A DNA stretch of 64,000 nt from Aplectana chamaeleonis (Eukaryota > Nematoda > Chromadorea > Rhabditida > Cosmocercidae), in assembly GCA_029168955.1 (NCBI GenBank), contig JAPDOI010000063.1, forward strand, positions 620,001 to 684,000, written 5' to 3'. The notes under the pieces are model-generated. The model was given only the letters and a program-made list of their open reading frames with translations. It was not told the origin of the DNA and did no database searches. A program made the translations under genes and the position numbers. Positions 37,451 to 64,000 of the stretch are shown here, one piece after another. Position 1 is the stretch's first letter. The number at the start of each line of letters is the position of its first letter.

Positions 37451-37456
37451 TAATAA

Positions 37457-38574: not shown

Positions 38575-38660
38575 ACAAGACTTTCGGCGACGCCTCGGCA
38601 AATGGTCGTCGACGGTCCCGGGGGGGGTTTCGGCCGCCGACCATTTGCCGAGGCGTCGTG
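38575..38660. repeat. Short perfect-like palindrome GCGACGCCTCGGCAAATGGTCG
   Basis: CGACGCCTCGGCAAATGGTC at 38589 is mirrored by GACCATTTGCCGAGGCGTCG at 38639 around a G-rich centre. It lies about 150 bp upstream of the LZIC start codon. Confidence 0.75.
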
Positions 38661-38810
38661 CCTCAAAACTATCTGAGGTCGCATTTTTTTAAAGTTTGGC
38701 GCTGGGTTTCCACTAGATTTTGGCTTGTAGAATTCGATTTCCTCCTATTAATTCACTTGAATCTGATCAATTGTTTCTCCTCACTGTCAATTCACCTATT
38801 ATTTGTAGTG

Positions 38811-41401
38811 ATGGCCGACGCTGTGCTTGTGGAAAATCTTCAAAAACAGCTGGATCGCTTAATGAATCAACTCGCCGATATTGAGGAAGAAAGGTTCGTT
38901 CCTGAAGATTCTAATTTTTTAGGTCATTATATTCCATAGAAAATTCGAAATTTTCGAGAAAATGTTCTTAGTTCCCAGTTTCCAAAACCCACCTCGAGTC
39001 AGCAGATCGGCGGCTGCGGCGCCAGAAGCTCTTCTGACTCGGGAGCGTGCGGCCGCAAAGCGTGTCGAGACGCAATTGCGGACCGGAATTTGGCCCAGAT
39101 AAGCACAGTATTCTTTCCAAATTTTTGTCACATTTCTGGACAGCGTGACAGATTCCATTTTCAGCGGTATATTGGATTTTTGTCTTTCTCGGTAAAAAAA
39201 GCAATTTAGAATTTCAAGATTTGTTGTTTGAAAGCTTCTCAATTTGAAAATGATTTTTTTTTCAATTTTTCAACCGTATATTTTTTCTAGGCCCAACATG
39301 GATGCTGAAGAGTACGAGGAGCTCAAATCGGACACCATGGAGGAACTCCAGGTTTAGAGAAAATTTCAGTTCTCATTTCATTCCCCGAATCTCATTCTTC
39401 TTTCTTTAAAAAAAGGTGTGAATCTGAGTTGGGAGTGGTTCTTGAGCCTTAGCTCAAAGTCATTCTCATTTTCGGATTGAAATTTCAGTCCGCAATGGCG
39501 GACAACCGCTGTTGCAACACTCAACACGATGATAATCGCGCTGCGACCATGAAAGTCATGCTGGGGGTCTCCTGGTCCCGGCCAGGACTAAATGTTTTCA
39601 TCGTGGTGTCAGCGTTAGTCCATTACTGCGGACCGGAATGTCGTTCCGAAACGGGGACAGTAGCTTGCTCCCTCTCTCTCACTCTCTCTCACTCACTCTC
39701 TCACTAACTCTCTTTTTTTCTCGCACTCTCTCACACACTCTCTCTCTCTCACTCTCTTCTTCTTCTCTGCACGCTCACTCTCTCATAGGTTCAGAAACTC
39801 GGCCACTAGCGTATCGTCCACAGATCCATTGTCGTTAATGTAGTCGGTCTCTTTGGGCAATTGAACAGGTGCTCACTCACTCTCTCCCTTGACTCTCACT
39901 CTCTCTATCTCTCACTCTCTCTCACTTTCTCTCTCACTCTCTCTTTCACTCTCTCTTTCTCACTCTCAATCTCTTTCACTCACTCTCTCACACTCTCCTT
40001 CACTCTAACTCTCCCTCTCTCTTTCTCTCTCATTCTCACTCTCTCGCACTCCCTCTCTCTTTCTCTCACTCTTTCTCACTCTCTATCACTCACTCTAACT
40101 CTCTCTCATTCACTCTCACACTCTCGCTCCTCTCTCCCTCTCTCACTTTTTCTCTCACACTCCCTCTATTTATCTTTCTCTCTCACCCTCACTCTCTCTC
40201 ACTTTCTTTCTCTCTATCTCTCACCCTCACTCTCTCTCTTTCTCTCTCACTCTCTCTCACACTCGCTCTTTCTCACTCTCTTTCCTCTCTCTTTCTCTCT
40301 CACTCTCTCTCACACTCGCTCTTTCTCACTCTCTTTCTCTCTAACTCTCACGCTCACTCTCTCTTTCTCTCTCACTCTCCCTCACACTCTCGTTCCTCTT
40401 TCTCTCTCTCTCCCTCCCCTCTCTCTTTCTCTACCTCACTCTAACTCTCTTTCTCTCTCATTCTCTCACACTCCCTCTCTTTCTTTTTATCTCACTCTCT
40501 TCCTCACTCTTTCACTCACTCTAACTCTATCTCTCTCACTCTCTTTGTTTCTCTTTCTTTCTCATTCACTCTCCCTTTCTCTCTCACTCACTCTCTATCT
40601 TTCTCTCTCACTCTCTCTCTCTCGCTCTCTCTCTCGTCTCTTCTGCGTATACTGCTGCGGTGAAGTATAACTGCGGTCTTGCAGGCATACCAGGCAATTT
40701 TTTCAGGATCTCAGTCGGACTTTGGAGAAGATGACTGTTGGAAATATAACTCTTATCGACAACCTCACGGCTACCCGAATGGTGAGTCTGAACGTTTTTT
40801 CTACATTGGCGCACCTTCGGAGGCACGAAACTGGGCGTGGCTTCAGATAAATCTCCGGGGGTTGGATCAATTGACCTACCAGGGCGTCGCATGGAAGCTC
40901 CTCCACGGAAGGCATGGTTGGTTAACTAAACCTGTGCTTTATCTGTTATTGTTGAATCATTCTAATGCGAAGCCACGCCCAGTTTCGTGCCCATTGGTGC
41001 GATAATGGCATTTGGGTCATTTCAGGCTGTAAGAGCAGCAATAAGTCAGGCTTTTCGAACACCTGAAATAGTAGCCCTGTTTGCCAGAAAACAACCGGCC
41101 GCATTGAGGCAAAAATTGATCGTGGTAGGTCAAATAGTTTTGAATTTTTTACATTATGCCAGTTCTTGTAATGCGATCTCATGCCATGTTTCAGATGGAA
41201 AATGAACGACGCATGCACAAATTGACTGAAAATGTCTACAATTTGCGGAAGTTTGAGATATTGACAGCTTTGATGAATCTGAAAGAAGACTTGACGGACG
41301 AGGAAAAATCCTTTCTGCAGCAAAAGAATTCGGAAAACATGCCAAGTTTCGACCTGGAAGCCACCTCTGGTAACACTACCTGTAAGACTATGCTGGGTTA
41401 G
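38811..41401 (+). CDS. LZIC: LZIC orthologue (leucine zipper and CTNNBIP1/ICAT domain protein)
   Basis: Five exons, all phase-consistent: 38811-38893, 39291-39351, 40707-40781, 41026-41124 and 41195-41401. They give about 174 aa against 190 in human. The N-terminal leucine-zipper segment (LQKQLDRLMNQLADIEEE) is followed by EEYEELKSDTMEELQ, then VGNITLIDNL. The ICAT-like helical block AAISQAFRTPEIVALFARKQ follows, with QLR-type continuation and FEILTALMNLKEDLTDEEKS, each close to the vertebrate protein as I recall it. LZIC is a small cytosolic/nuclear protein related to the beta-catenin inhibitor ICAT, and a role in Wnt signalling is only inferred. TTTGTAG directly before the TGATGG start context could be a trans-splice acceptor. 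Intron 1 holds half a MITE, and intron 2 a MITE and a CT array. A pseudogene copy lies at 57910-59014. Confidence 0.95.
38962..39108. mobile_element. Right half of the TA-flanked MITE
   Basis: Matches the right half of 31828-32106, ending GCCCAGATAAGCACAG followed by TA. The left half is missing. It lies in LZIC intron 1. Confidence 0.8.
39480..39660. repeat. MITE, CCGCAATGGCGGACAACCGC family
   Basis: Left GAAATTTCAGTCCGCAATGG pairs with right TACTGCGGACCGGAATGTCG. It lies in LZIC intron 2, directly before the CT array, and is absent from the duplicate copy at the corresponding place. Confidence 0.65.
39662..40645 (+). repeat. CT-rich microsatellite (CTCTCTCACT), 1 kb
   Basis: Near-continuous CTCTCTCACTCTCTCTTTCT repeats, with a unique 110-bp interruption at about 39785-39895. 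The 269-codon Ser/Leu frame at 39861-40670 is an artefact. It lies in LZIC intron 2 and is absent from the duplicated locus. Confidence 0.95.
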
Positions 41402-42541
41402 TCCATAGGTTCCAGTGTGGGCGCGCGTGTATGCGAAGCGGTCATATTAGGTCAACTGGACACATAGGCTCGCCGGTGATGGCAGCTACCCTCCGGAATT
41501 GTACTTGTCTTTCATGGCTATTCACAGCATTTATTGTGGCTCTCAGTTCATTACTGTAGTATAGTTTACTACACAAGCCAGTAACGGTCGAATTTAACCG
41601 GGCTGCCCCCGATCCACAGTACCCCTTTTCGCGGCGGGACCAGCATGGATTGTTGGCTCGCATGCAGTCATGGATTCTTGGCACAAATGTTCGATCAATA
41701 TGCCTCACATATTCGTCTTCACATTGTACGCCGTGGAAACCTGTTCATATTACTTTTTTTCGAAAACGGCTGAAACTCTGCAAGACCTATTTCTCGTACG
41801 TGACGTCATTTCATCGTCCGAATCGATGTTTGCTCGCAAATAGCAGAAACATTGAAGAAAAGCTTGAACGAGAAGACCTTTTTCGTGGTTGATGATTTTT
41901 TTCACACAGTTTAATCATTTTACTCTTCTGTCGTGCTTCGGAAAAAAAAAGGAATTGACCAACTTCAAATTTGCTTCTCTTCAATCCAGGATGTTATTTT
42001 AGGTATCCGAGTTGACCAAGAAACAATCACAGTCTCTCAAAAGCCCATTACATGGCTAGCGAGGTTCCCTAATAAGAACTGCATGCACACATGGATATTG
42101 TCCAGGTAGATTTCTTCTGGCCTTGCGCCCTCAACACTTTCCTTCTTCTCTTTCTCCTTCTATCCATCACGGCTTCTACCTGCAAAAGATCAGTTGAAAA
42201 CCACTAATCGTTTGGAAAGAAGGACTGTTAGCCTCCATCGTTTGTGTCCCTCCTTTGTTCACATGTTTAGCCGAATTCCTTTGTGGTGTCAGAACTGATT
42301 TCCACAAACAACAGTACTCCTTCGAACAACCAGAGATGAAAGCGAGACACCAAAATCTTCAGGTTTCACTTGAAATAGCGCGTACTTCAGTTTCTTCATA
42401 CACAGCGTACGGTCATCAATAGCGAGCCGTGAAACATTCTCCACTATTTTTTGAATGCCATCCAACTGCTGAAATGATTAGGTACTCCACGAGTAGCGAA
42501 ATCTAGTACCAAGCGTTCATTTGCGAAATTTATGTCAGTCA

Positions 42542-42990
42542 TTATATTTTCCATTCATTATCTTCTGTCTCTGTAGTGATGCAGACTGAGGTTGCATCTT
42601 CATCAAACTCTGCGGAACAAGGGTCAATATTTTCTTCATAACTATCGTCGCCAAATAGACCAGGACTAGCATCTTCAGAACTGAGAAAGAGTGCTGGTTC
42701 AGGTGTGTTTTTTCCTGAAATGAAGTCCCGGTGAACAACTGGATACAATATAGAGATCTTAGGCTTTTAGTACGCTCGCGTCGCAGGTCTTGCCGCTGTT
42801 GTCAGTGACAGATCTGCCACTCGTCGAATAGGAACTTGAACCAACCGCAGACCCGTAGCTGAGAGCAGCGATACGCGACGCAAGTATATTGTAGGCCTTG
42901 GGCATAAAAAGTACCATCGTGATGAATCGCCCAAGCGTGAACATGCTTACAAGGTATCTCTGCTTTCACAATCTGAGGACAGCCACATGT
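42542..42990 (-). pseudogene. MULE transposase remnant with SWIM zinc finger
   Basis: On the minus strand the exon ending at 42810 reads CGCPQIVKAEIPCKHVHAWA, an exact SWIM zinc finger (C-x-C-x9-C-x-H), the hallmark of the C-terminal half of MULE transposases. It is followed by FYAQGLQYTCVAYRCSQLRV. A GTCACT donor joins in phase to 42542-42738, an acidic C-terminus (FLSSEDASPG, TTETEDNEWKI, stop at 42542-42544). Upstream of the SWIM motif the frame meets a stop within about eight codons unless a splice site intervenes. I found no DDE catalytic core between 43 and 48.7 kb. A decayed or incomplete gene. The SWIM motif itself is firm; the splice joining is tentative. Confidence 0.65.
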
Positions 42991-43271
42991 CTCTTCCGTT
43001 GTTCATTCTCTGGTGATTCCAAATGGTTACTCTTGCAGGAAAGTGCACAGTGGTAGTGCCGTAGGATATTTTGACGAGTTAGATTCAGTGGTTAACAAGT
43101 TAAGAAGTGTTAGAACGTGTTATTTTCTCTTCACCTCTTCACGTCCTTGTACTGAAGAATCGGGTTTGACGGTCGCATGTCTCTGCAAGGCGTTCAGATG
43201 ACAAGAGCCTTCATTCCCCGCCCTTGTATTTGTTAATTTTTCATGTTCTTTTATTTTATCACTTACTCAGG

Positions 43272-43604
43272 CAATAACTGCATTCGATGCGTGTCGCTGT
43301 TTCGAGCACACTCAGGGAACGTGCAGCTTGGGGAGCTTGTGCTCCTATTGTGCTTCAAATTACAGCACGTGCTCCAACAAACAAGACGTTCAATGCGTGC
43401 ATGGTACACATTCAACGCGATGGCAAAACGATTTTCCAAGAAAAGAAAATATACGACGCACACTTGAGGCGCAACTAAGATGTTGGGAGCGTCGCCGGCT
43501 CAATCACCCAAATTTGTGGTTCTTGACCCGTACAGCCTCTGTTGGCCTCAAGCAACCACTGGCGGCCCCAGATAGTGCTCGGCGCGCTGGCCGCGTCGCA
43601 TATT
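43272..43604 (+). other. Cys-rich open frame inside the MULE, unrecognised
   Basis: After a CTTACTCAG acceptor-like site one frame stays open for about 110 codons with a Cys cluster (CRCFEHTQGTC, CSYCASNYSTCSNK, QCVHG). The cysteines partly coincide with a GCACGTGCTCC repeat that recurs at 43370-43740, so the pattern may be repeat-derived. It could be cargo or transposase-derived. No family recognised. Confidence 0.25.
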
Positions 43605-44055
43605 GATGGGACGGCCGCCTCGCGTGTGGGTGTGCTGCTACGATAGCGCCGGACTACCTTTCAGCACGTGCTCCTGTGCATAAATTTTGCGGCACGTGCT
43701 CCTGCAATCAAATTTTGCAGTACGTGCTGCTACTTGGAGCACGCGCCCCTGCGATAGAGCTTTTTGATGGGTGTGGTCACTCGAGTTGAAAGCATATTCA
43801 ACATGCATTGAATGCGGCGATTTTCTGTGTACATTGATTTGTATCCTTGGGTTCGGAGCCAGATTTACTGTGTTCCCTCGCGCGTTTGTGCTAATGAATC
43901 CGATATTATCAAAGGGGTGAGTTGTCAGGTTCGGTTCAGCCGTGACTTCTCTAAGTAACGAAACCGCTTCCTTCAGTATCTTCTCAACGAGGATCCCGAA
44001 GACTTTGAATGCTCTGCGACGATAGTGAGACTTTTCTCTAGCGCCTGTTCAGAGA

Positions 44056-44349
44056 ATGAGCAATGATCAGGAAATGTTACTGAATGCTAGCTTTTTTTTT
44101 GAGTATCTGAAGCACTATTGCTTGGAGTCACCTGACGTGTTCAGCATAGGTGAGAGTAGTCGAAAGAGGAAGCGCAAGGTGAAAAGTTTTACTTATTTTC
44201 GTGGAAATCCATCACAGATAGAGTTTTGCGGCGGTAATCCACTTCATTTTCAATGTTCTGAGTCGATGAAAGAGAATGTGGAGTCGAACGAAACAGCGTT
44301 GGCCCCCCCCCCCCGGCGAAAAGGTATGTGTCGCATCATAGTGATGTGA
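44056..44349 (+). other. Open frame with basic cluster inside the MULE, unrecognised
   Basis: 97 codons with a nuclear-localisation-like cluster (SSRKRKRKVKSF). A donor candidate (AGCATAG|GTGAGA) falls within it and a C-run follows. It may be a decayed exon of element-borne coding sequence. No family recognised. Confidence 0.2.
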
Positions 44350-44402
44350 GACACGCTTTGGATCGCTTCTGGAGGGATTGGATCTCATGAATGCATGCGA
44401 TG

Positions 44403-44490
44403 AAGCCCCGTGTTGCGCCCAATCAGGAACCTCGCTCCTCCCCCGTTTCTCCCGCCTCCGCAGGGGTGTTGATACACGATGGCCACTACC
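44403..44490. repeat. Half of the GC-rich hairpin MITE
   Basis: Matches the right arm of 2977-3153 (CCTCGCTCCTCCCCCGTTTC, ACACGATGGCCAC). The left arm is missing. It lies inside the MULE. Confidence 0.75.
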
Positions 44491-44664
44491 CCACGGCCGC
44501 TCACGCTGACGTGCTCAAACTTGCTATTGGGTTCCAGCCTTTCCTTGCTACATAAGCTTGACAGATGGGTGGAGTCGAGCTCCAAGAAGAAGTTTCTTTA
44601 TGGAATGCTCTCACCGTATGATCGAAACGAGAGACGCAGTTTTTTTTGATTAGCTGCCGTCATA

Positions 44665-44860
44665 GTCGTAGCGAAATCCCGGTTCGCAGTTGCAGAGAAC
44701 CTCTGCTGCGACACGTACTGCAAACAGAATCATGCTAGGGTTACAAGGTCCTGGTGCGATTAATCATCGTCCCTCCTCGATTATCTTCAGGCCGCGTGCT
44801 GCAACTGCGGACAGGAATCTCACTCCGGAATGGGCATCAACGATGGAGCTCGGCTCTACC
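44665..44860. repeat. MITE of the CCGCAATTGCGG family inside the MULE
   Basis: Left GAAATCCCGGTTCGCAGTTG pairs with right CAACTGCGGACAGGAATCTC, and the centre matches 22930-23135 (GATTATCTTCA). Confidence 0.65.
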
Positions 44861-45479
44861 GATGTTGCCGATTATGGAGCAAATCAAGGTCGAAACCCAT
44901 TAAACACTTCGTTGCATATTTCTGCGAAGATTTCGAAACAACCTTCAACACTCATCTAATTCTAGCGGCTAAAAGTTAGAAACAAAATCTGTCAACTCGT
45001 GAATTCAAATCTCCTCTGGTGGGTGCCTATCTGTGAAGGCAATTAAGCTATAAGAAAAGAATTCAATTTTTGAGTTCAGTCCACAACATTTCAACAAAAG
45101 TGCAGCAGCCTAAAAACTTGATGACTCCTGCATATCATTCTAGAAGATAAACCTCATAAAGCACTTAATTCTCTAAAAAGGTTTAAAATGTGTTTAAATA
45201 AATGATCAAAAAATCAAAATGCAAAAGAAAAGAAGATCAGAAGACAGCATTCAGTTTAAGAATTACAGGTTTGGAGGTAGCCTTCACTTTTTTTGCATTT
45301 CAACCTTGAACAACGTTCACTTCTATGACTACTGTCTTGTGTGGCTCTCTTTGGCTTCCATTGAAGTCCAAAATGTTGACGATAGCCCAGAGATGGAATC
45401 CACGAACACCTTCCCACCGCTAGCTAGCGCTTCTGACCTAGACAGTCATGGTTATCGCACTAGAAGTTTGCGAACGCGG

Positions 45480-45685
45480 CTCCCTAGCTATGGCTCTATT
45501 GACCATAGCTACTCAGGAACTCGGTGCTCGCGGCCCGCGCGCATTTCGGGCCTTGCTCGCCACCCGCTCACCCCTCATTTTGAAGTGCTCGCCACCCGCT
45601 GACCCCTCGTCTCCGCTCGCCACCCGCTATGGGTATAGCGGGTCGAGTGGAGGTGGTATAGTGGGTCGCGAGCCCATTGCGAGCC
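45480..45685. repeat. GCTCGCCACCCGCT repeat cluster
   Basis: GCTCGCCACCCGCT occurs three times, followed by its mirror (AGCGGGTCGAG, AGTGGGTCGCGAGC). Related copies are at 48235-48300. Both clusters lie inside the MULE. Confidence 0.65.
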
Positions 45686-46381
45686 AGTCGACCGCTGTAT
45701 CAACAAAAATCACAGTTGGCGTCTGATTCCCCTGCATCGTTTTTTTTTCTTGCTTTCGATTTGTTTTCCTTTGTGATTTAGAACTACGGTGAAGTTTACC
45801 AAATGTTCTCCGTGGTTGCTGTCACCCTTTAGCCAGACTATGTGTGCGACCTCTTTGTCATTCGGCGAGTCAGCACATAATTATTTAATGCCTTAGGTGT
45901 ACCCACGAGTACCAGATAGGTGTTAATGACTCGCCCTAGGACAATCACGCCTCCATTATCACCATCCTCACGTCTACGTGTCACTCGATATGCCTCAGAT
46001 CATTTGTGATGACTTCTCCGACAATTTTTTTTGAACATTTCTGTCAACCCCAGCTACTCCACGTGAATAGTTCCCTATCCCTATTTTCGCTGTTCAGGTA
46101 TTTTCCATTTAGGTTCTGAAATTTCTCCAAAAAAAATGAAATTTTTTGGAACACTTCAAATTTGATCTTTTTTAAATCAGGAAAATCAAAAAGGTTCATT
46201 GCTTATTCTGAATTTTCGAATGACTCGTGAGTTAAAAATGTTGAATGTATTTGATGAAATTCAGTAAATGTAAATTCATCAGATGTTACGGGCGAGCACT
46301 TGAATTTTTGAACGGTCTTCAAATTATGTGTAACATCATAATTAATTTTGTTTCGCTCGCTGAATAATTTTTATTTTCCAG

Positions 46382-46663
46382 GTGAAATTTTTTGTTTTAC
46401 GCATGCTTCCATTCACGAACCGGTCCGCACAGTGCACCATGAGAGCTCGTGCTTATGGAGGTGAGATGCTATTTTTAATTGTTTGCGATTCTCTTCCACG
46501 GGCTTATATTAGACGACAAGAAGCAGCTGATTTAGAAGTTTTCTCTGAAGCTCTGAACGTTTCAAACTTTTCAGAGATGCTTGTTAATAGAGTTCGTAGA
46601 AGAGCTGCGTATTTGGAGCGTCTGAGGAATGGACGAAGAAAATGGAAGTCAGCCCTCGTCTGA
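46382..46663 (+). other. Arg-rich open frame inside the MULE, unrecognised
   Basis: The frame follows a TTTTCCAG acceptor and ends in a basic tail (EMLVNRVRRRAAYLERLRNG). A donor/acceptor pair inside (GGAG|GTGAGA ... ATTAG|ACGACA) would remove the hydrophobic stretch. It could be a terminal exon. No known family, and no partner exon found. Confidence 0.25.
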
Positions 46664-46669
46664 TTCTTG

Positions 46670-48140
46670 AGTCATTTTGAAAAAGGCCAATTTTTCACGT
46701 TTTTTTTTTACAAAGGGCTTGTTTTCAATGCACCCCGATGTTTTAGGAAACCATAATCCGCAGATTTCTGTAGATAATTTTCAATAACAAAATTGCAAAA
46801 TGCCTCAGAGACTTCCACATTCCTAGGGGGGCATATTCATATTTGCGAAGGGAAAAGGGGTATCCTAGGTGAAATTTGGGACGTCCAGAAAAAACTGTTT
46901 CTAAGTTCACCCTATTTTTGGGTGCTGATTACAAATCTCAGGTCCATTGGTCATTTTGTTTCGAAAGTGGATTTTTTCTGAACGTCTAAAATGTCCTTGT
47001 CGGTTCCCTTAACTTATCGCTAGCACCAAAAAGGCATTGTTTACGAATTCACTCAGGTAATTAGGGAATTTCGAGCACGGATTCTTCATGTACTGTCCCA
47101 TACCTACAACAGCGAAAACGCTATCCTCCAAATCATCGTGGCGCGGGTGAAGCAGTCCCTAGGAAGTGCACTTTTCATGTATTTTTTCAATTACTTTGCT
47201 AAACCAGTAATACAGTATCATTTCAGGAGGGATATTCGCAGCCTACAAATTCCACGAGGATCGTACAATTTCTAATGGATACCAATTAATGTAAGTGCGC
47301 TGCTATTACTTATTTGTACTACTCAATTCCACTAAAATCAATTTTTTCAGCGTCATGGCACACCGAAGAGCAGTCAGTGTGGAGAAGTAGAAGAGCTAAT
47401 GTAGCGTATATTGGCAGAGCCGTGAGGCAATGATGCTAGTGGATTCTGAAAATATTTTTTGATTTCTGTATAATTAAATTGCCAAGTTGCTGTTTGCTTC
47501 CCATGAAATAGTTCACTACAGTGATGTTATTTACAAAAAATATTACAACTTAATGCGATATTGATATTGGTATAAGTAGAATTAGAATATTTATATATTG
47601 ATAAATAAAACAAGGTCGGAAAATACTTGGTTTTATCCTAGGCGGGGGGGGCACTCAGGCCTCGAGCGAAAATGAACCAATGATTATTCAAGTTTTTTTA
47701 GTTTTCATAATAACTGATTGATACCGATATAAGGTAAATCCCTCTGCTTCTTTTTTATAGTTTAATCTCGAGTGCCTCCAGTCTGAGATAGAGCCAAATG
47801 CTTATTGTACATGGGATTGTGCTTCGTTTACTACATGCCATGATATATATTATATTTGTGACCAATTAGAATGATATGAATTCGGCGTGTGAAACCATGA
47901 TTTTGATCATTGTATTGATTGAACGCCCGCCTGTGACATTAAATGCTGAGTGAATTTGTATTGATTGCTGGAATATAATATAATAATAAACACATTTTAA
48001 CCGATTGTAGATCATAAATCTATTACTGAAAGATAAGGGATAGAGGTGGGGGAATAGATTCGATGGGGTATGAGAATTTAATGATCGGGGTGTGAGCTAG
48101 TGCTAAGCTATCACGCAAGAGTGGGCGTCACCCGCTACCA
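46670..48140. other. AT-rich interior of the MULE, no gene recognised
   Basis: Low-complexity AT sequence with short frames only. An AATAAA-rich stretch at 47590-47610 and a G8 run near 47645 are the only landmarks. Confidence 0.4.
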
Positions 48141-48799
48141 TTTTGTCAGCTACCAGGAGAAGGCGAGTGGGTGAGTGTGATGTGGCGGGCGCGCCGCCGA
48201 ATTAGTGGTGGCGGGCGGGGAGCCCCTGCCGTCGAGTGCTCGCCACCCGCTATAATTTCGCTCGCTGCCCGCGAAAAGGGTTGCTCGCCACCAGACTTTC
48301 GCTTCGCGGATGGCGAGCTCCAACCTTCTGAGTAATCAAACCACGTGCTAACCAATGACGTGGTTTGTAGTCTACCTATTTTCATCTCCCCTTTCTCGAT
48401 GAAGATTGAATATATATGGTTGTCTCGCTCGAGATCAGCTGATCGGGCCACTTTTCGTTGAATTTCACTTTTTCTCATGGATTTTGTCCGTTCCCACTAA
48501 AAAAATGAAATAAACTGAAATAAACTAACTATAACCTCAAAATGAAGATTGACATCAAAACAAGTAAAAAAAAGGCCGTGGAATAGTGATAAAATGTTAA
48601 ATGGACACAATCGATTACAGAAAACAATGAAAAGGAGTGTTCCTAAACTTCACAAGAGAATGAGCTGCAAGCAGGAAATTATTGGACATATCGAGCGATC
48701 AAGTGTGCCAAGCATCCATGTTGGTCCCGCCGCGAAAAGGTGCACTGTGAACCGGGGTCAGCTCGGGAAATTTTGACCGTTACTGGCGTATGTTTACTA

Positions 48800-50600: not shown

Positions 50601-50915
50601 AAAGCCTAAGTTCATCCTATGTTGAAGCCTGAGTGTGGAAGGATAAGCCGCACGCACCTATGGCATTATCCTTAAAGTGGGGAGGCTGCGCGCAAGCAGA
50701 GAGATTTCTTATGGCGGTGGTAATTCTTAATCGAATCGTGGGGTTCATTTTCTGCCAAGTGTGCCTACAGCACTTTTCCAATACGACGCGTGGTGGAAAC
50801 AAGCTCTGCGATTGCCGCTGCGCAACCGCTCCCGTTGATAATTAGCGGTTGCGGTGGATCAAAATCCCAATTTTTTTTCTTAAAAAACCGCTAAATGTCT
50901 AATCGTATTTTTCAG

Positions 50916-51009
50916 TCATTTGCAGCTGTTGAAGGATTTGTAACGGATGCTACGGAGGATCTCAACGACGATTATATCCTGAAATGTGCCTATAGAATGA
51001 AATCTATTT
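50916..51009 (+). pseudogene. SWT1 exon 7 copy, orphaned by deletion
   Basis: 94 bp, still in frame (SFAAVEGFVTDATEDLNDDY, then ILKCAYRMKSI), with an intact TTTTTCAG acceptor and GTGAGT donor. It is almost identical to exon 7 of the intact gene at 63103-63196. Exons 1-6 are absent: the sequence jumps at about 50838 from the block matching 61480 to the block matching 63025. It cannot encode SWT1 on its own. Confidence 0.92.
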
Positions 51010-52180: not shown

Positions 52181-52189
52181 GCTAAAGTT

Positions 52190-53560: not shown

Positions 53561-53567
53561 TCACCCG

Positions 53568-54003
53568 CAGGGATGAGCGGAATTCCGATTTCCGATGGTT
53601 TTTGGTCTTCCGATTTATGAATTCCGATTTCCGAAAAAAGCCTGAAAATGCGGAAGAAATCGGAAATATTCACGAGATAAAAAATTTTTACGCTCTCCCT
53701 GGCCAAATCCCCAGAGGGTTAATTTAGGCGCTGAATTCGGATTCGAGGTCCGTTTTCACTTTTCACAAAGCCAGAGTTGATTGAGTTTGCATAAAAACTT
53801 TCAGTAAAGAAGGGTGAGTTCAAGTTTTTTGGTGGTACGCGTAGTCACCAGGGGGAGCGTTAAGAATTTCACTGAATGTATTTCCGATTTCCGCATTCCG
53901 ATTTCCGATGGTTTTTGGCGTTCCGATTTCCGATTTCCGAAATTGAGAAGGTTCTTCCGATTTTCGATTTCCGAAGTTCAGAAAAAAATTCCGCTCATCC
54001 CTG
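53568..54003. mobile_element. hAT-type MITE with 8-bp target duplication
   Basis: 436 bp. Terminal inverted repeats CAGGGATGAGCGGAATT and AATTCCGCTCATCCCTG are flanked by GTCACCCG at 53560-53567 and 54004-54011. The CAGGG start and 8-bp duplication are diagnostic of hAT elements. Subterminal regions carry many ATTCCGATTTCCG copies (at least ten), as expected of transposase-binding repeats. No transposase. Confidence 0.9.
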
Positions 54004-54024
54004 GTCACCCGTGGTGGTTGTAAT

Positions 54025-54165
54025 GTTCTCCAACCGTAGGATAGGCGGAGGAGGGGCTCCTTGTTCCGTCAGATCACGTGCGTCGCTCCTCCCCCATTCG
54101 TCCAATCACGTGCGTCGCTCATCTCCGGTTTCCCCGCCTCTATTGCGGATGGGAAACATTACCAC
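54025..54165. repeat. Diverged GC-rich hairpin MITE
   Basis: TGGTTGTAATGTTCTCCAAC near 54012 partly mirrors GGGAAACATTACCACGACCA, and GATCACGTGCGTCGCTCCTC recurs as AATCACGTGCGTCGCTCATC. Distantly related to 2977-3153. Confidence 0.55.
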
Positions 54166-54940
54166 GACCACCCAGTCGCGTTTGGCGCAGATTGCGTGAG
54201 GCAAGTTCACTTTATCACAGAGGTTTTGTCACTAAGATGTGGAATGATTTGTGTTATTGTGACGAAAATCGGACAATATCAGTTTGGAAATCAGACAATA
54301 TCATGTCTTTCGCCACGTTGTCCTTGACGCGACGGCCTGTCTCCGCGCGGCCACAACTCGGGTGAGGCGTCGTTGACTATTGGATTAGTGCGGTTCTGTA
54401 ATGTTGATCACTCGACACGATTGATATTATAGGTTTGCTTTTCGTCGCTCCGCTCAGCGGTGGAAGTGTAAATGATGTCTTAGAGCGCGAATAGAAACCC
54501 GTCGCTGAAAGGCGTGGCATCATTCAGTGCTTTAGTATTGATCACGCCACACCACATGCTTCTCAGTCGCCTGCTACAATGCCTTCCGACAATGGGACAG
54601 TATTTGGGATTGAAGGTTTTTTGGAGTACCATCGCGATGCTACGTGGCTGGATTTTCTCTGTAGGTATCGATTGAGATTATGCCTCATGAAAAAAGCTAG
54701 AACCCCAAATCGAATATAAACTTCCCAGAACTAGCACCTCGGGGGGATCCCAAAACTTTTGGATTTTGGAAGAAAAAGATGGGGCTCGCTCCGATTTTGA
54801 AAAGTCTCGCAAAGCCCCGCTTCACCCTGGCGGGCGGTCATTAGCGAGGTAGCTGCGCACAAACGGGCCCTTACGTGCACTCAGGTAAGTCCCTGTAATT
54901 TCTGTTTGAATATTATTAATCCCATTCATCTTGAATAATA

Positions 54941-55905
54941 TTGTATTGGTTCCAGCGTGACTACATCAGCCGGATATCTTCATTCAGTGCCACTTGCCCC
55001 ACTTCGGAATGTGACAGCGACCTATGCAGAGTGCCAGTTCAACGTTGTACCGTACCAGTACGGGTACACGGTAGTTGGATTTTCTTAAAATTTTCTGCCA
55101 CCGTGATACGTACGCCGTTTTTCGAAATCTGTAGGGTAAAATCTTTTTTTTTATTTTCGAAAAATTGATGGGATAACTTTGGCTGAAGAGTGTGTAGAAA
55201 TTTTTGAGAGCTACAGTTTGAAAATTTTTCTTGAAGGTTGAGTGTGGGCTCGATTGTAAAGTGTCCGTGAACCATCAATGCTTTAACCATCTGTTGTGGG
55301 AGAAGAAGGTCTCGAGCAGTTACGATTCGAAACGCCAATCTCATTTGAGAGGATAGGAAATTGAGCTGATTTTGCGCATGCACTGCTTTACCCGTGGTTG
55401 TGGTGGTTCAATTCGTTGTGTATGGGAGTATGAACAAAATATTGACGACGCTGTGGTTAGTTATTGTCTAGATAGTTGAATTTTCATGTTATGATTCACC
55501 AGTCTTGAGAAAATTTCCCTTTTTTAGTGCGTCAGACCCTACCATCTAACTTCTGTGTGGAACAAATTTTTCGTTGAGAGCTGTGTCAAGGAGGAAAACA
55601 ATGGTTCATTGCTTGGGGAATCATTTTACTTTGGTGCCTAAAAAATTTCTGTTAGCGCAGTTTGAATAGATATAATTTTATGAGATTAATTTTTTTCAGG
55701 TGAAACTTGGAACTCCAGATGAAGTTGTGGGTGTTTTGGCTGATCAAATGAGAAGTCAAATTTCTTTGTCTCTGGCAGCTGACCCCAGTGGTATGACATT
55801 TGTATTAGCGTCAACGCAGAAGACTTCACCAGATTTATGGCGCACATTTCAGTACTTGAGACCAGCTGGGATTCGGGGTCAAACAACAAGAATACTGATA
55901 CACTA
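54941..55905 (+). other. Possible multi-exon gene, unrecognised
   Basis: Several segments look exonic: 54956-55070 after TTGGTTCCAG (Cys-containing), 55237-55308 (VECGLDCKVSVNHQCFNHLL), and 55370-55455 (CFTRGCGGSIRCVWEYEQ, then NIDDAV, with a G|GTTAGT donor). The last joins in phase 0 to 55700-55905 (KLGTPDEVVGVLADQMRSQI, then TSPDLWRTFQYLRPAG). Regular Cys spacing hints at an extracellular or zinc-binding product, but I cannot assign a family, and alternative frames exist in the first segment. A truncated LINE follows at once, so the 3' end may have been replaced. Confidence 0.3.
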
Positions 55906-55939
55906 ATTCTCGTAATAGCGAAGTTTGTGGGGGGGATTC

Positions 55940-56305
55940 ATTGTATGAAGGAACGATTCGCAGATGCTCCTCGTAAAGTTGATGCACAGAGATGGGCCGA
56001 CGCCAACATGGAAAGGCTTCGTCTTCTGCTTGAGGAGCACATCAGTTTGTTCGAGAATATCTAACGAAGGCGGCTGTGAACCCTATCTTAGCAGTGCCGC
56101 CGCGGGTTTGCGAGTCCGAGTCTCAACTCGGCAGGCGAGCCAGATGTGCTGTGGCGCTCCCAGACACGACACGGCGCACTTGTTCGTGTGCCCGAAGAGA
56201 CCTGCCCTCTTAAGCACAATTACCTTTGGACGAATCCTGTGAAGGCCGCCCAGTTCCTCAACCTATGACTAAAAGACCACTTTGAGGCTGCAGAAGAAGA
56301 AGGAA
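55940..56305 (+). pseudogene. 5'-truncated, internally deleted LINE 3' end
   Basis: Matches the last 450 bp of the LINE at 7128-10583: KERFADAPRKVDAQRWAD, ESQLGRRA-like and DTAHLFVCPKRP, then CCCAGTTCCTCAACCTATGA and a GCTGCAGAAGAAGAAGG tail. The TLASLRCGHSTM-to-CPDCG segment is deleted, and a stop falls at about 56062. A dead copy. Confidence 0.88.
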
Positions 56306-56309
56306 CGAT

Positions 56310-57290
56310 GGAAGCGATGGGCGATAAGGTGAGCAAGATGGATAGGCTACCGTTTGGGATCTGAAAGTAGATGGACATGTTTACAATAGAGGGGTTTGGA
56401 GGAAGTTCTCAGGCCTTCAAGAGCGTCTCCCCTCGGAGGAGGAGCTTGTTACGCTCTTTTTTTCCGTTTCCACGACAATGACTTCACAAGCGCGCCGGGC
56501 GAGGGTGGACGGACTTGTGGAGTGAATAAAGGGAACCTGCGAAAAAAAACCGAATAACAACTTCGAATTTGTGTTCAGTGGCCTAAATAGCCCCTCTGAA
56601 TTATATTGAGCGAGCAAATCAATCCCAGGTATCCATTCCGTGGTCGAAAATCCTAGGTCTGCGCCCTTTACCACCTAGTTATCGGGAACAGTTCCGAGGT
56701 TTATTTTTACTTCTTTTGATTGATGCGGTGGGTAATAACTCATTCAGAGAAATGTTTCGCAAATTTAGATTAAAAAATTCGTGTTCCACGAGCTAGAAAC
56801 GTAAATTCCATTCGAAATGGCCACTTTTCTCAAATATCCTCCCCTTGTCAAGCCTGTTCGCCATTGCAGAATAATGCTAATTTAAAATAGGTTTTCTATC
56901 CGTTGAATCGTTTATTGTTGCTCCACTGGGATTGATTCTGCCTCTGTGGATTCTAATCATATTAATTTATTAATATCAGATTTCTATTAGCACCCCCTGT
57001 GAATGAACAAGTGTTATGCACATGTTCGTTCCCCATGGAGGAAATTGGTTGGGGCGGGGTTAACCCCACCCACGCACTTTATAGTTCAATTGGCGGCAAC
57101 CTTAGAGCTGAGAAGGCTCCGCCAAACTGCAAATGGAGCGACGACGGTTAGGATAGCCCCGCCCCAAACAATTTCCTTGATGACAGCCTTTTGCGGCCTG
57201 TAAAAATGGGCGTGTTTAAGTGCCATGGCCATGTGCCCCTCTCGCTGCGATTGCACCAAAATTAAAGTGTATTTATGAAAATTCTTCAAA
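56310..57290. other. No gene recognised
   Basis: AT-rich to 57000. Then comes a small inverted-repeat element at about 57045-57260 (GTTGGGGCGGGGTTAACCCC ... GATAGCCCCGCCCCAAAC), with a tail (AATGGGCGTG..AAGTGC) similar to 22305-22370. Confidence 0.4.
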
Positions 57291-57447
57291 GTTATACCCT
57301 AATTCTGGAAGGTGTGATAGGTTCCGTGTTCAGTGCTATATTAGATTCGTGGGTGTCGTGTTCCGTTGAAAGAAATGCACTTGAAAATGTGTAAAATTCC
57401 TCTTCGAAAGCTCTTCAACTTGAATTTTTCAAATTTACTCTGTCCCC

Positions 57448-57870
57448 AACAAGATGGCAAGCGAAGGGTCCCGCGATGAAACAGCGCTCCCTCTGCGTCT
57501 CTGACGTTCTTGAACTACGGTAAGACGTCGCGTACGCAAACCACGTACGCAACGGAGACTCTGTCTTACCGTAACCCAAAAACAGAATAAGCGGTTATCC
57601 ATTTCCTGAAATCACCCCACCTGCCAGGTAAGTAAGAGTATTTGTCTCAAGAGCGAGTATCACGGGCATTTTCAGCGAAAATTACGCAAAAAATGATGAA
57701 GTATGTGGAAAAGAGAAAGGAAAACGTGAAAACTCGATGAATTCTGTTTTTGGGTCACGGTAAGACAGAGGCTCCGTCGCGTACGTGATTTGCGTACGCG
57801 ACGTCTTTCCGTAATCCGAAAACGTCAGAGACGCAGAACGAGCGCTGCTTCTTTGGACTCTTTGCTTGTC
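57448..57870. repeat. Foldback element with GGTAAGAC arms
   Basis: GTCTCTGACGTTCTTGAACT at the left and CGTCAGAGACGCAGAACGAG at the right, with inner arms TACGGTAAGACGTCGCGTAC and GTACGCGACGTCTTTCCGTA, around a loop of about 130 bp. It lies just upstream of the LZIC pseudogene exon 2, in the position of intron 1. Confidence 0.8.
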
Positions 57871-57909
57871 ATCTCATTAGGGATAGAGTATACCCTGATT
57901 TTTTTCTAG

Positions 57910-59014
57910 GCCCTACATGGTTTTCCAAGAGTACGAAGAACCTAAATTGGACACCATGGAGGAACATGAGGTTTACTAAAACTTTCAATTTTTCTTTTAT
58001 TTCCGGTTTTCTAAACGTTTCTCCTTTAAACATTGTGGATCTGGGCTAGGAGTGGTTCTGAAGCCTAGGTCAGAGTCAATACGCTCTCCGTCTGCTGCGT
58101 CGTTCGCGGGGACAAAGTATATCATCTATTTCGAAGTAAATTTTTAAACTTCCCTCGCGTGCGTGTGCGGAGCGATGGGAGATACAGCGAGAACTTGTGG
58201 AGGGGAAGGAGGCGGAGCCTACTCGCACACGCACGCGATCGACGGAAATATATTTAACTCTGAAATAGAGGGTTACGCGTGTCGTAAAGCCGTACCAGAC
58301 TATTTTTTCAGGATCTCAGTCGGACTCTGGAGAAGATGCCTATTGGAAACATAACTCTAGTCAACAATCTCACTGCTATCTGAATGGTGAGTATGAGCAT
58401 TTTCTACATTGACGCACCTTAGAAGGCACGAAAGTGAGCGTGGTCTGAGATAAAACTTCGGGGCTGATTCAGTTGGCCTGCCAGGGCGTCGCACGGAAGC
58501 TCTTCCAGCGACAGCATTATTGGTTTACTGAATCAAAACCTCTATTTGTTATGCGTGAGTCATTGTACTACGAAGCCACGCCCAGTTTCGAGCCAATTGG
58601 TGCGATAACGGCATTTGGGTCATTTCAGGCTGTTAGAGCAGCAGTGAACCAGGCTTTTCGAACACCTGGAGTAGTAGCCCTGTTTGCAAGAAAAAAGCCA
58701 GCCGCATTAAGGCAAAAATTGATCGTGGTAGGTCAAACAGTTTTGAATTTTTTAAACATTATGCGAGTTCCTGTAATGCGATGTCATGCCGTGTTATGCT
58801 GTTTCAGATGGAAAATGAACGACGCATGCACGAATTGACGGAAAATGACTACAATTTGCGAAAGTTTGAGATATTGACAGCTTTGATGCATCTGAAAGAA
58901 GATTTGACGGACGAGTAAAAATCCTTTCTGCAGCAAAAGAAATCGGAAAACATGCCAAGTTTTGACCTGGAGGCCACCTCCAGCAACACTACCTGTAAGA
59001 CTATGCTGGGATAG
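57910..59014 (+). pseudogene. LZIC pseudogene (duplicate of 39291-41401)
   Basis: Copies of exons 2-5 at 57910-57970, 58312-58386, 58629-58727 and 58808-59014 keep all splice sites. Exon 3 has a CGA-to-TGA stop at 58381-58383, and exon 5 a GAA-to-TAA stop at 58916-58918. Exon 2 is diverged but still in frame, and exon 1 was not found upstream. Intron 2 lacks the CT array and MITE of the intact gene but has its own TIR element (about 58085-58275). Confidence 0.94.
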
Positions 59015-59174
59015 TTCATAAGGTTCAATATGGGCGCGTCTGTAGGCAAAGTGGTCACATTAGGTCAGCTGGACACATGGACTCGCCGGTGATGGCAGCT
59101 CCCATCCGGAATCGTTCGTCTTTCATGGCTACTCACAGCATTTCTTGTGGTTCTGACTTTGATACTGTAGTATA

Positions 59175-61110
59175 GTTTACTACTGCTTGTGTTATTCAGG
59201 AAATTTCTCTGTCTATGCCGGTTCTATGTGCCATTGTTTAGACTTCTGTCTGTCATCGCCGTCAAGAGACACGAAAGTGGCCGTGGCCTCCAGGGTTTCG
59301 TACTTGAGCTTCCCACTACCCTAACTTCTTTGAAAATGCGCTTCTTTAGAGGGCCAGTCCACATTTGTGCCCTGCTTTGCCTCTTGGTCTTGCTACTGTA
59401 TTTCAGTTTCTTCAAGATATTTTGACAGGTATTGTATATATGTATATTTTTGCTTTTCTATCACATATTTTATGAAAGATTTTATAAACAATACTGGCAA
59501 CTCTGTATGATTGCGTGAATGGTTTCGAACCATTTATATCTGTTGAGTAACTTGCTGTTGTTTGTATCTCAGGTAATGGCATCGGGCGGATGTACAAAGG
59601 GCGCGTGACGGTCAATGTGGATAGGATGTGCATCTATGTGAATAAATAAATAAATAAATAAACGCACCTATGTGATTTCGTCGGTAGGGCAGCCACTGCA
59701 ACTTCGGCAAGGGCTGGGATTCATGAACGAGTGTGTGTCCTAGCTGGGTTTGTTGCAATATCTTCACATACCATTAACTTATGAACACTTAACATCGACA
59801 TGGATCCTGAAGAGACTTTGCGTTCCCCATTGGAGGTTGGCGCAAACTCGGTGCACCTATGTTAGAGCATATAGCACCGAGTTTGCGCCAACCTACAACA
59901 GTGAACGCAGAGTCTCTTTCGAGTCCATGCCGACGTTAGGTCGGCTAGCGCTAGGCTGCATCTGTGTTCCGCGAGTGCGCATCTGCGAAGTGCGGGTTAC
60001 GGCATGGTAAGAAGCACGGAGATGCGGTCTCGTAGGTTCCAAGCGTGACCCAGCCCTAGCCGAACCAGGTTTTGACGAGTTTTTGGCATATGTAGATTTT
60101 GATACAAACCCAGCTGGGACCCATGCTCGTTCATAAATACCAGCCCTGGTTCGGCTAGCGCTGGCCTACATTTGGCTCCCACGAGACCGCATATCCGTGT
60201 TTCTTAACCAAGCCTTGACCAGCACTTCGCAGGTGCGGTCTAGTGGGGCCCAAATATGGGTCAGCGCAGGGCGAACGAGTGCTGACGCGTCGTTAGCTGG
60301 TTAGGATTTTGCAACAAACCCAGCTCGGACCCACTTTCGTTCATGAATCCCAATTCAGTCCGTGAGTCGCCACAGGTTTCCTGCCTGATGGTACGCATGA
60401 GGAACTCATTTGGTCACTTCAAGTCGACATATCGAACTGATCGCGGGGTAGATGCTGTTCTGCTCATCCTTGACCCTCGGTTTGGACGACGTTGTTTGAG
60501 TATGAACGTGTGTGGCAGGTTTGTACCCATTCAGTCAAACCGGGTGAACCTAGGGCCTCTGGCGGGTCGATCAACTCCCAACCGCAATCCGACAGCCTTC
60601 CGCCCGGAATCAACCCGCCGCGGAGAGATGGATGGCAGTATGAGGTCAGCATGCTCACCATTATATAGGATATCTGCCACTGTCAGCTACCCGCCCATTG
60701 TTAGCGTTTCACCCGCTGTCAACCCGCCACGCTCAACGCTGTCGCAGATCCAACTGACAAGTTCGCATGGACCTGCCATTAGACCGGCTTGCCCTCCATT
60801 GACCGCGTTTCGCCTGCCACGCACCCGGGATCGGCTCGGAAGGAATGCGAAAGCCTAAGGTCTCTTTCCGAGTGCGATCGCTGGTCGCCGCGATGGCAGG
60901 TTTTGAACACACGATCTCGATCAATGCTCATGGTGATCATTCCATCGCGTCGCACAGCGATCGAACTCTGACAGAGGCTGAAGTTCGCCTGGTGTTAAAG
61001 CCTGATTATGGAAGGATATGACATTATCCTGCATGTGTGGAGGCTGCGCGCAAGCTGCTAGATTTCTTATGGCGGTAACAATTCTCGATTGATTCCTGGG
61101 GCTCACTTAC
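59175..61110. repeat. Segmental duplication copy B, non-coding block
   Basis: Collinear with 41564-41572 plus 48792-50640. It lacks the 7.2-kb MULE and contains additional inserts: a MITE at 59799-59935 and further unmatched segments near 60355-60540 and 60860-60980. The (AATA)n tail is at 59641-59661. Confidence 0.82.
59799..59935. mobile_element. Foldback MITE inserted after the duplication
   Basis: The ends ACATCGACATGGATCC and GAGTCCATGCCGACGT are inverted. The copy A sequence (AACACTTAGTTCGG at 49880) has the uninterrupted site, and TTA is duplicated at the ends. It belongs to the same family as 4590-4714. Confidence 0.8.
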
Positions 61111-61116
61111 TGCTAG

Positions 61117-61400
61117 GTGTGCCTATAGAGGTCTGCAGAGTTGCAGAAACCGGCGAGTGGTTGCCGAGCGTCAGCCTTGACGCGGCGACAAAAATGTTTC
61201 GAAACATTATCGACGCGGCGCCGGTTGCCGCTCGCTGGCAGTGATATGGGGCCGTCGCGGCGTCAATACACTGCGGTGCCCCCTCGTCGCCCTTCACGCC
61301 GCGTCGGTCGCCATCGTGGCCGAATGTAATCGATATTGCATCACCCAGTGCTGCTCGTCGCTGCGAGCAACGCCGCTACTTGAACTCTGCAGACCCCTTA
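61117..61400. mobile_element. GGTCTGCAGAGTTG MITE inserted after the duplication
   Basis: The ends GAGGTCTGCAGAGTTG and AACTCTGCAGACCCC are inverted, with TATAG-like flanks on both sides. The corresponding place in copy A (GTGCCTACAGCAC near 50763) is uninterrupted. Confidence 0.8.
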
Positions 61401-61612
61401 TAGCACTCTCCCAAAGCATCAAGCGGTGGGCGCATGGCGGCAACAGGTCTGCGATTGCCGCGACGCACCCGCTCGCGTCGATGCAGCGTTTATGAGCCGC
61501 CTTCAGTTCAAACATTTCCGATGAAAGGGACTGTGTACATCTAAAATGGGATCACCTGAGTAAATCCGTCAGTACGTACTCTCTTGATCTACAGTACGAC
61601 GTATTTTAGATT

Positions 61613-63196
61613 ATGACACAGAAGGCGAGGAAGTGCCGAATAGATATGCCGGGTTTACCGAAACCATGGTCGGCATACATGCATCTAGTCAAAAAGAAAG
61701 TCTTCTATAATAATTCCGAAACGGGAGAGTCTCTGTGGCATCTGCCCAAGGAGATTCGAGCCAAGTTCACGACAGGTACTGCTTCACTTTTTAAAAATAT
61801 TTTCTTTTCAAAAGGCGAATTTTCAGCTGATGACGCCTCCGAGAGAAAGCTAGAAGATGAGAAGTGTCCGGCCCAGATTGTTGTTACGGAGGAGTGGGTG
61901 ACTTTCTTTCATAATTTTGTTCTCAGACAATCTCAGTTGTCGACAGCAGGTCGATAGGATGTCATCTCCTTAGACATACTAGCTGTGTCCCGCCAGACCG
62001 CTGATCTTTGCGCTTGCATCGGGGCACACGCCAGGTCTCTCGGGTAAAAGAAAAGGTGTTCCGGAGAAAACCAGGCGTTGAAGAAAGCGCTGAAGAGCGA
62101 TGTTTCGGGATGAACGGCAGATGTTTCGGGTCCACGGAATCGGCCTTAATACGGCAGCGGTGTGGCAGAACACAACTGCGAGTGTCGGAGTCATGAACCG
62201 CTTCTTGTTGACAGTCAAAACCACGTGTATTTGCCCCGAAAGGTCCGTCTGTCGCCCCGAAAGACCTGCTTGTCGCTTCGAAACACTGTTTGTTGTCTCG
62301 AGAAACCTGCCTTTCGGTTCAGCATGGAATCGATGGATTGCGCAGAACCCGCAGGGAGTTCTCCCGTCGGAGGGTGTGAGGATATGGATATCGATTTTTC
62401 GGAAGATCTTCGTCAGATGCGCGGAATGAGCTTTGCCATGGGGACGATATCAGTGGTGAGGCGCTATCTCTTGATCATTTGTGTGATCTACGTATATTGA
62501 TTATTTCCATAGTGTTTTCTAGGACTCAAAATATCAGGAGATATTCCCTTCGTCGGCTGGTAGCTGCCGAAGCTGTGTGGTGTTTGACACCTGTGTACTA
62601 ATAGACGATCCGGACATGTTAACTGACTGTATAGAAAGTGAATTTTTCGGGTTTTCCCGCGGATTTTCAAAATTATTTTCACTTTTTTTCACAACTTTTC
62701 AGAGGGTGTATCTATTGTGATCCCGTACAGAGTCTTCTATGAGCTGGATAATATAAGAAAGATTTCATCGGATTCGCAGTCGGCCAATGAGTTGAGGAAG
62801 GTGTGTCTTGAAAACTAAGAATTTTTAGAAAAATTTTCATAATATTGAACATTTCGAAAATTGTAGATTGCCACCAGGCTAGTGCATAAACTTCGTGATC
62901 TACGATCGTCACCGTTGGTCTACTGGGAGAGCTCATCAGAGGTGAGGATTTGGTTGAAGGTGACAAAAGGTACTGTCGAGGCTCGCTCTCCACGCTCCAC
63001 ATGACATCTAAATTTTGATTTTTCCTCATAACGGTTGTGGTAGATCAAAATCCCTTTTTTTCAAGAATCTGCTAAATTTATCAGTCATTTGTTTTTTTTC
63101 AGTCATTTGCAGCTGTTGAAGGATTTGTGACGGATTCCACGGAGGATCTCAATGACGATTATATCCTGAAATGTGCCTATAGAATGAAATCTATTC
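61613..63196 (+). CDS. SWT1: SWT1 RNA endoribonuclease (WW + PIN domains), 5' seven exons, runs off window
   Basis: Exons 61613-61775, 61827-61893, 62323-62455, 62523-62637, 62703-62800, 62867-62941 and 63103-63196 join in consistent phase. The first exon encodes a WW domain (LPKPWSAYMHLVKKKVFYNN, then ETGESLWHLP). A short acidic linker (MDIDFSEDLRQMRG) leads to the PIN nuclease domain: CVVFDTCVLIDDPD with the first catalytic Asp, VIPYRVFYELDNI with the Glu, and TEDLNDDYILKCAYRMKSI with the later Asp pair. This is the order in Swt1, a nuclear-pore-associated endonuclease that degrades defective mRNPs in yeast. The ATG at 61613 is the first in frame. The intron after exon 7 holds a minisatellite and passes the window end, so the C-terminal half is not seen. 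Confidence 0.9.
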
Positions 63197-64000
63197 GTGA
63201 GTTATTGTTACGATTGGAACCCGAAGCTCCGCCCATTTTTTCCATGCAGTGAATCGAAGCCCTGCCCACAGTGAATTTATGTGGTGACTTAGAAGCCACG
63301 CCCATTTTTCAAAGGCTTCATAGACCATGACCCAGAGCCCCTCCCAATCTTCTATAGTTTCACGCTACCACTCTAAACCCCGCCCACTAACTCATATCTC
63401 TCACAATGACATAGAAGCCCCGCCCATTTTATTATTATCATAAAAGCAATGGCTCAAATGCCTCCCACTGTTTTAAGAATGATGACCCAGAAGCCCCGCC
63501 TAAATTTCTATATTTTTACGCAGCCACTGCAAGCTCCGCCCACTACTCATTGCTTAATGTCATGACCCAAATGCCCCGCCCACTATCTTATGGCTTTATG
63601 CCATGTCCCAGCTGCCCCAATCAGGATTTTACGTGACGACTCAAATGCGCTGCCCGTTTGAATTACGTCCTGCGCTATGGCCGGGAGCCCCGTCCACTAT
63701 TTTGTGGCGGTATAGCAATATTCTATAGGCCCTACACAACGACCCAGAAGCCCCGCCCACTGTCTTAGAGATTTCTGCGGGGTGACTCAAAGCCACGCCC
63801 ATATTTCTGCGGCATGCCACACAACGGCTAGGAAACCCATCCACTATTTCGTGGTTTCAGTGCGATGACCTGGAAGTCTGCCCACTATTTATGTTTTTAA
63901 ACGATTCAATTTCAAGCGACTTTCTGTATGCTCTGCCCACTATTTCATGGCTTTTTTCGCGATAACCCCGGAATTTCACCCACTTTTCTATGGTTTTATA
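63197..64000. repeat. GCCCCGCCCAC minisatellite, copy B, in SWT1 intron 7
   Basis: The same degenerate unit as 51010-52180 (GACCCAGAAGCCCCGCCCAC ...). It starts at the same distance from exon 7 and continues to the window end. Confidence 0.85.

Follow-up and report, generated by a model that had tools for sequence, protein, structure and literature searches.

When a stretch of DNA has been duplicated, and one of its genes appears to survive in the first copy while the neighbouring gene survives in the second, has each copy lost a different gene, or did the duplication itself deliver each gene broken in one place? This question is raised by a 64,000-nucleotide stretch of the Aplectana chamaeleonis genome (hereafter the window; contig C63, JAPDOI010000063.1, positions 620001-684000, in an assembly of 1.04 Gb and 2,087 contigs) that carries copies of LZIC and SWT1. 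A sequence-only reading of the window had proposed a segmental duplication with reciprocal gene loss, and with it a possible route to hybrid incompatibility.

Arrangement of the two copies

Self-BLAST of the window resolves two direct repeats, copy A at 39.1-52.2 kb and copy B at 57.3-64.2 kb, whose blocks lie in the same order (Table 1), bearing out the collinearity noticed earlier. Over 11 aligned blocks the two copies are identical at 2,957 of 3,513 aligned sites (84%), and by exon positions they are spaced 12-19 kb apart on the contig. The 5.1 kb that separates them can be explained as repeats in part only.

Insertions further distinguish the copies. The transposon-like element of copy A is flanked by a 9-bp target duplication (GTTTACTAC), and the corresponding empty site is found at B 59175-59183; a site filled in A and empty in B indicates that the element entered A alone. 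The smaller inverted-repeat element in LZIC-B intron 1 sits between two left-edge homology blocks.

Table 1 Features of the duplicated locus (window coordinates)
Feature	Position	Strand or orientation	Remarks
Copy A of duplicated unit	39134..52200	+	from LZIC intron 1 into SWT1 intron 7; right end approximate
Copy B of duplicated unit	57303..64000	+	extends beyond window to ~64.14-64.28 kb; right edge approximate
Weaker left-edge pair	A 39134-39248 / B 57303-57424		score reached by 0/200 shuffles
Block pair	A 39281-39462 / B 57900-58078	direct	self-BLAST
Block pair	A 40688-41572 / B 58293-59183	direct	self-BLAST
Block pair	A 48781-48924 / B 59163-59307	direct	self-BLAST
Block pair	A 49384-49878 / B 59304-59791	direct	self-BLAST
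Block pair	A 49876-50266 / B 59936-60340	direct	self-BLAST
Block pair	A 50289-50613 / B 60532-60862	direct	self-BLAST
Block pair	A 50659-50770 / B 61017-61128	direct	self-BLAST
Block pair	A 50843-51204 / B 63029-63377	direct	self-BLAST
Block pair	A 51377-51953 / B 63394-63900	direct	self-BLAST
LZIC, copy A	38811-38893, 39291-39351, 40707-40781, 41026-41124, 41195-41401	+	intact, 5 exons
LZIC relic, copy B	57911..59014	+	exons 2-5, without exon 1; stops
SWT1 relic, copy A	50843..51009	+	exon 7 (50916-51009) with splice sites
SWT1, copy B	61613..64000 within window	+	exons 1-7; exons 8-11 follow beyond window on contig
DNA-transposon-like insertion, copy A	41573..48791	.	7.2 kb; ~81-base terminal inverted repeats, 84% alike
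Inverted-repeat element, LZIC-B intron 1	57478..57851	.	111-nt arms, 89%
Segment separating the copies	52201..57302	.	5.1 kb
Inverted-repeat element, inter-copy segment	52557-52841		
Repeat, inter-copy segment	~53568-54008		at 40 other places among scored candidates
Piece of inter-copy segment	~55957-56227		seen at one other place

State of LZIC and SWT1

The exons of LZIC-A join into an open frame of 174 residues with GT/AG introns, and the product passes the Pfam ICAT profile (PF06384, 39 bits against a cut-off of 25). An approximate 162-residue join of the exons is 79% identical to the protein of Cooperia oncophora and 78% identical to that of Teladorsagia circumcincta, the best of 23 matches; by this resemblance the DNA would most likely belong to a strongylid near the trichostrongyloids. 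In copy B, exons 2-5 equal their counterparts in length, with no indel across 438 coding bases, and are interrupted by in-frame stops at 58381-58383 and 58916-58918; an intact LZIC in A and two stops in B, at 58381 and 58916, had been reported before and are confirmed. The absence of exon 1 from LZIC-B had been missed. Used as a DNA query against the whole genome, the 885-bp LZIC segment finds two matches, copies A and B, and no further copy outside them.

The second gene, which we take to be SWT1, owes its name to the sequence-only reading, the matched database entries being named ‘WW domain’ or hypothetical protein. Its copy in B yields an 11-exon open model (61613-66567, boundaries picked by score) that aligns along residues 1-502 of a 510-residue Haemonchus protein, the linkers being poorly conserved; exon 8 lies at ~64289-64400 and the stop in exon 11 ends at 66567, past the window. 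Pfam finds PIN_4 (PF13638) in this model at 73.7 bits against a cut-off of 21.9, while a WW domain in the exon-1 open reading frame reaches 24.1 bits against a cut-off of 26.9 and is unlisted for the assembled model. The earlier observation that exons 1-7 are complete in B and that only exon 7 persists in A holds, and can be extended by the four exons beyond the window. At the junction 50839/50843, copy A has no counterpart of B 61483-63028, which contains exons 1-6, and their disappearance would most simply be attributed to a single deletion. All eight matches of a genome-wide search with a Haemonchus SWT1-like protein fall at this locus (seven in B, the eighth being A exon 7), so no second SWT1 was found elsewhere in the genome. 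With LZIC open in A and SWT1 complete in B, the description of one survivor per gene, in different copies, is correct.

The neighbourhood of the two genes appears to be old. In Parelaphostrongylus tenuis, LZIC (KIN20_030712) and an SWT1-like gene (KIN20_030713) bear consecutive tags, and the contig given for both is 166,381 bases long; in Trichostrongylus colubriformis the model P0032 starts as LZIC and then runs into an SWT1-like protein. Read from these locus tags and protein models, the order LZIC>SWT1 is very likely ancestral, and the pair would very likely predate the duplication.

The edges of the repeat

The repeat ends within a gene on both sides, in LZIC intron 1 on the left and in SWT1 intron 7 on the right. 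On the left, LZIC-A intron-1 sequence from 39134 on matches B from 57303, at a score that none of 200 shuffles reached. The stretch of A that contains exon 1 and the promoter matches the 1 kb upstream of B no better than shuffles do (84 of 200 reach its score), and the same is true when exon 1 is compared with the inter-copy segment in its entirety (109 of 200). Across 82 kb, LZIC exon 1 has a single convincing match, in A (E 1.4e-14), the next best having an E of 1.0. The sequence upstream of A (36000-38800) shares a 16-base match with the gap between the copies, which was reached by 5 of 200 shuffles and is taken as chance.

On the right, the alignment of A with B continues through SWT1 intron 7 as far as approximately A 52.17 kb and B 64.14 kb, just short of exon 8; this intron is internally repetitive, so that the register near the edge is uncertain and the breakpoint is not base-exact. 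That homology stops before exon 8 had also escaped the sequence-only reading. Exons 8-11 are matched solely after B, and neither B 64200-66600 nor B 64200-64500 resembles the inter-copy segment more than shuffles do (142 and 122 of 200, respectively). Taken as a whole, 52201-57302 contains no above-shuffle match to LZIC exon 1 and its promoter, or to SWT1 exons 8-11.

Divergence and decay

An estimate of the synonymous divergence of paired exons had been suggested earlier as a check on the duplication, and for LZIC exons 2-5 it gives a Ks of 0.32, with a Ka of 0.076; SWT1 exon 7 differs between the copies by three synonymous changes and one replacement. Non-coding divergence in LZIC is uneven (K of 0.223 in intron 3, 0.075 in intron 4 and 0.189 in the 3' flank), as it is across nine blocks (0.066-0.33). 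A 48781-48924, A 49384-49878 and LZIC intron 4 have diverged by about 7% (K 0.066-0.076), and seven other measured blocks by 0.15-0.33. Two stretches are unusually alike, one from the end of LZIC exon 4 to exon 5 (A ~41.1-41.4 kb, 92-97% in 60-base steps) and the other non-coding (A 49.38-49.74 kb, 92-98%); the steps between them range from 77 to 93%, and those around them are mostly at 75-90%.

The replacement changes fall overwhelmingly on one side. Polarised with four strongylid proteins (Trichostrongylus for residues 1-107 only), 20 of the 25 amino-acid differences between LZIC-A and LZIC-B, two of which are stops, are assigned to B, one to A and four are ambiguous; both stops are counted among the 20. 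The 20-24 replacements observed in LZIC-B can be set against neutral simulations, in which the mean number is 23.0, 28.3, 34.3 and 46.4 at branch rates of 0.075, 0.093, 0.115 and 0.16, where 0.093 corresponds to half of the divergence pooled over LZIC introns and flank, and 0.16 to half of Ks. At these rates, the probability of 20 or fewer replacements is 0.30, 0.049, 0.002 and <0.001, respectively, and that of 24 or fewer is 0.64, 0.215, 0.018 and <0.001. LZIC-B replacements are thus below neutral expectation on most yardsticks and, together with the lack of coding indels, this points to a possible period of constraint on LZIC-B. Gene conversion is a possible cause of the alike stretches and would account for part of the replacement shortfall; a period of function of LZIC-B is another possible cause.

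Origin of the locus

We consider it highly probable that one tandem duplication, from LZIC intron 1 to SWT1 intron 7, produced this arrangement, and that the truncated halves then decayed. A segment of ~6 kb (an estimate, the span of B minus two insertions) would have been copied in tandem from an ancestral head-to-tail LZIC>SWT1 pair. The left copy would have been born with a whole LZIC, as exon 1 and the promoter lay outside the unit, and with an SWT1 that broke off within the PIN domain, ahead of exon 8, while the right copy would have had a whole SWT1 and an LZIC devoid of exon 1 and start codon. Probably non-functional from birth, the truncated halves would have decayed afterwards, copy A losing SWT1 exons 1-6 to a 1.5-kb deletion and LZIC-B acquiring two stops and nearly all polarisable replacement changes, with the 7.2-kb transposon in A and the small inverted-repeat elements in B as later arrivals. 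Since both repeat ends are intragenic, it was most likely the duplication itself that cut short one copy of LZIC and one of SWT1, and damage confined to these copies is then expected and no coincidence. The sequence shows directly the repeat structure, the place of the homology ends relative to the exons, which genes are intact, the polarity of the replacements and the empty and filled transposon site; we infer that the homology ends mark the original breakpoints, that the duplication happened once and that neither truncated half was ever functional.

The segmental duplication of the sequence-only reading is supported as real, and it is old; reciprocal gene loss by divergent resolution is not supported, because that model starts from two whole copies of each gene, whereas the repeat ends inside the genes. 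Nor does the proposed route to hybrid incompatibility fare better, as it needs copies that segregate apart, and two copies at this spacing on one contig would rarely segregate as divergent resolution requires. The locus is an ordinary partial duplication, and not evidence of speciation-type reciprocal gene loss.

Had both genes been duplicated whole, LZIC-B would later have lost exon 1 and gained its stops, and exons 1-6 and 8-11 would have disappeared from SWT1-A. That LZIC-B has fewer replacements than neutral on most yardsticks and is free of coding indels would fit the period of function that such a history allows, but the extra deletions must then happen to end within two introns, LZIC intron 1 and SWT1 intron 7, and the inter-copy segment bears no above-shuffle trace of the missing ends, even though SWT1-A exon 7 is still plain. 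As these gene ends left no trace, we reject true reciprocal loss as the best reading and give it a small chance. Mis-joining of two haplotypes, or of two worms, end to end, with A and B as alleles, which the sequence-only reading had itself named as its refuter, has a similarly small chance. In its favour, the same geometry of genes truncated on the outside would arise from haplotig ends that overlap, 1.04 Gb is large for an assembly in this nematode group, and A 48781-48924, A 49384-49878 and LZIC intron 4 are indeed little diverged. Against such a join, the remaining seven blocks and the synonymous sites of LZIC exons 2-5 have diverged more, the window contains zero Ns, the 5.1 kb between the copies lacks both the rest of SWT1 and the beginning of LZIC, which either haplotype should carry there, and one allele would need a broken LZIC and the other an SWT1 without exons 1-6. 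Judged from the assembled sequence, an artefact of this kind seems unlikely.

The partial tandem duplication would also have brought SWT1 exons 1-7 upstream of LZIC exons 2-5 at the newborn junction. That they formed a chimeric unit, or that LZIC-B was otherwise used before it decayed, making the locus a fossil fusion gene, we regard as improbable. The paucity of replacements and of coding indels in LZIC-B is a possible trace of such a fusion or of temporary use. By exon lengths, the end of SWT1 exon 7 is in phase 1 and the start of LZIC exon 2 in phase 2, so that a simple splice from exon 7 to exon 2 is out of frame; this disagreement of phases, the missing exons 1-6 of SWT1-A and the two stops of LZIC-B lead us to reject an active SWT1-LZIC chimera.

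Comparison with known systems

Among the listed papers on LZIC, SWT1 and nematodes, none treats this gene pair in nematodes, to judge by titles and the opening parts of abstracts. In Mimulus, as described in PMC5896889, hybrid lethality comes from divergent resolution of pTAC14 duplicates at two loci, hl13 and hl14, and which of these has the working copy differs between the two parents. The Aplectana locus resembles this system in apparently having one working copy per gene after duplication; unlike it, the copies are in tandem on one contig, both fates would stem from one event, and the comparison here is within one genome. True reciprocal loss at this locus, if shown, would bear on the study of incompatibility, although it is unlikely with copies so closely linked. 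It would seem prudent to check whether the ends of a duplicate fall in genes before a pattern of ‘kept here, lost there’ is called reciprocal loss.

A closer parallel is provided by partial and chimeric duplicates, which the review by Katju 2012 (PMC3449122) describes as abundant. Chimeras are expected there to arise commonly from single events that partly cover two adjacent genes, and 63% of the spontaneous duplications in mutation-accumulation lines of C. elegans were partial (Lipinski et al., as cited in the review). As in those duplicates, one event with intragenic breakpoints would have affected two neighbours, and the derived copies are truncated and carry premature stops. Here, however, a simple splice across the junction is out of frame and, in contrast to the Sdic chimera of Drosophila outlined in PMC3449122, both halves have decayed. 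With its half-genes, its empty and filled transposon site and the polarity of its changes, the locus preserves a compact record of truncated-copy decay.

Sequence conservation between the two copies

Alignment of copies A and B, the collinear direct repeats carrying LZIC and SWT1, gives an identity of approximately 75-90% over most of their length, whereas the non-coding stretch at 49384-49740 in A and 59304-59660 in B is 92-98% identical. Gene conversion or constraint may lie behind this high identity. When SWT1 intron 7 of A is aligned with that of B, a short motif centred on GCCCCGCCCACTATTTTATGGCTTT is seen to recur many times in degenerate form in both (see table).

In the annotation of Trichostrongylus colubriformis, LZIC and SWT1 are joined in a single protein, GCK32_006905, which is either a gene-model fusion or a hint of a common transcript (operon) for both genes.

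Mobile and repeated elements

The intact LZIC of copy A is followed, ∼170 bp past its stop codon, by the insertion point of a 7.2-kb element, which we take to be Mutator-like from the length of its target duplication. Between the copies lies a short repeat (53568-54008) that matches at least 40 further places at 90-95% identity, with scoring limited to 40 out of 13,201 candidates.

Mobile elements and motif-bearing introns, in window coordinates
Feature	Position	Details
Non-LTR retrotransposon	7093-10110	1,005-aa open frame; endonuclease and reverse transcriptase domains
Tc3-like transposase domains	25977-27092	Spread over two neighbouring open frames
7.2-kb element	41573-48791	Terminal inverted repeats; 9-bp target duplication
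Motif-bearing SWT1 intron 7, copy A	51010-52170	
Motif-bearing SWT1 intron 7, copy B	63197-64000	Continues to 64288, beyond the window
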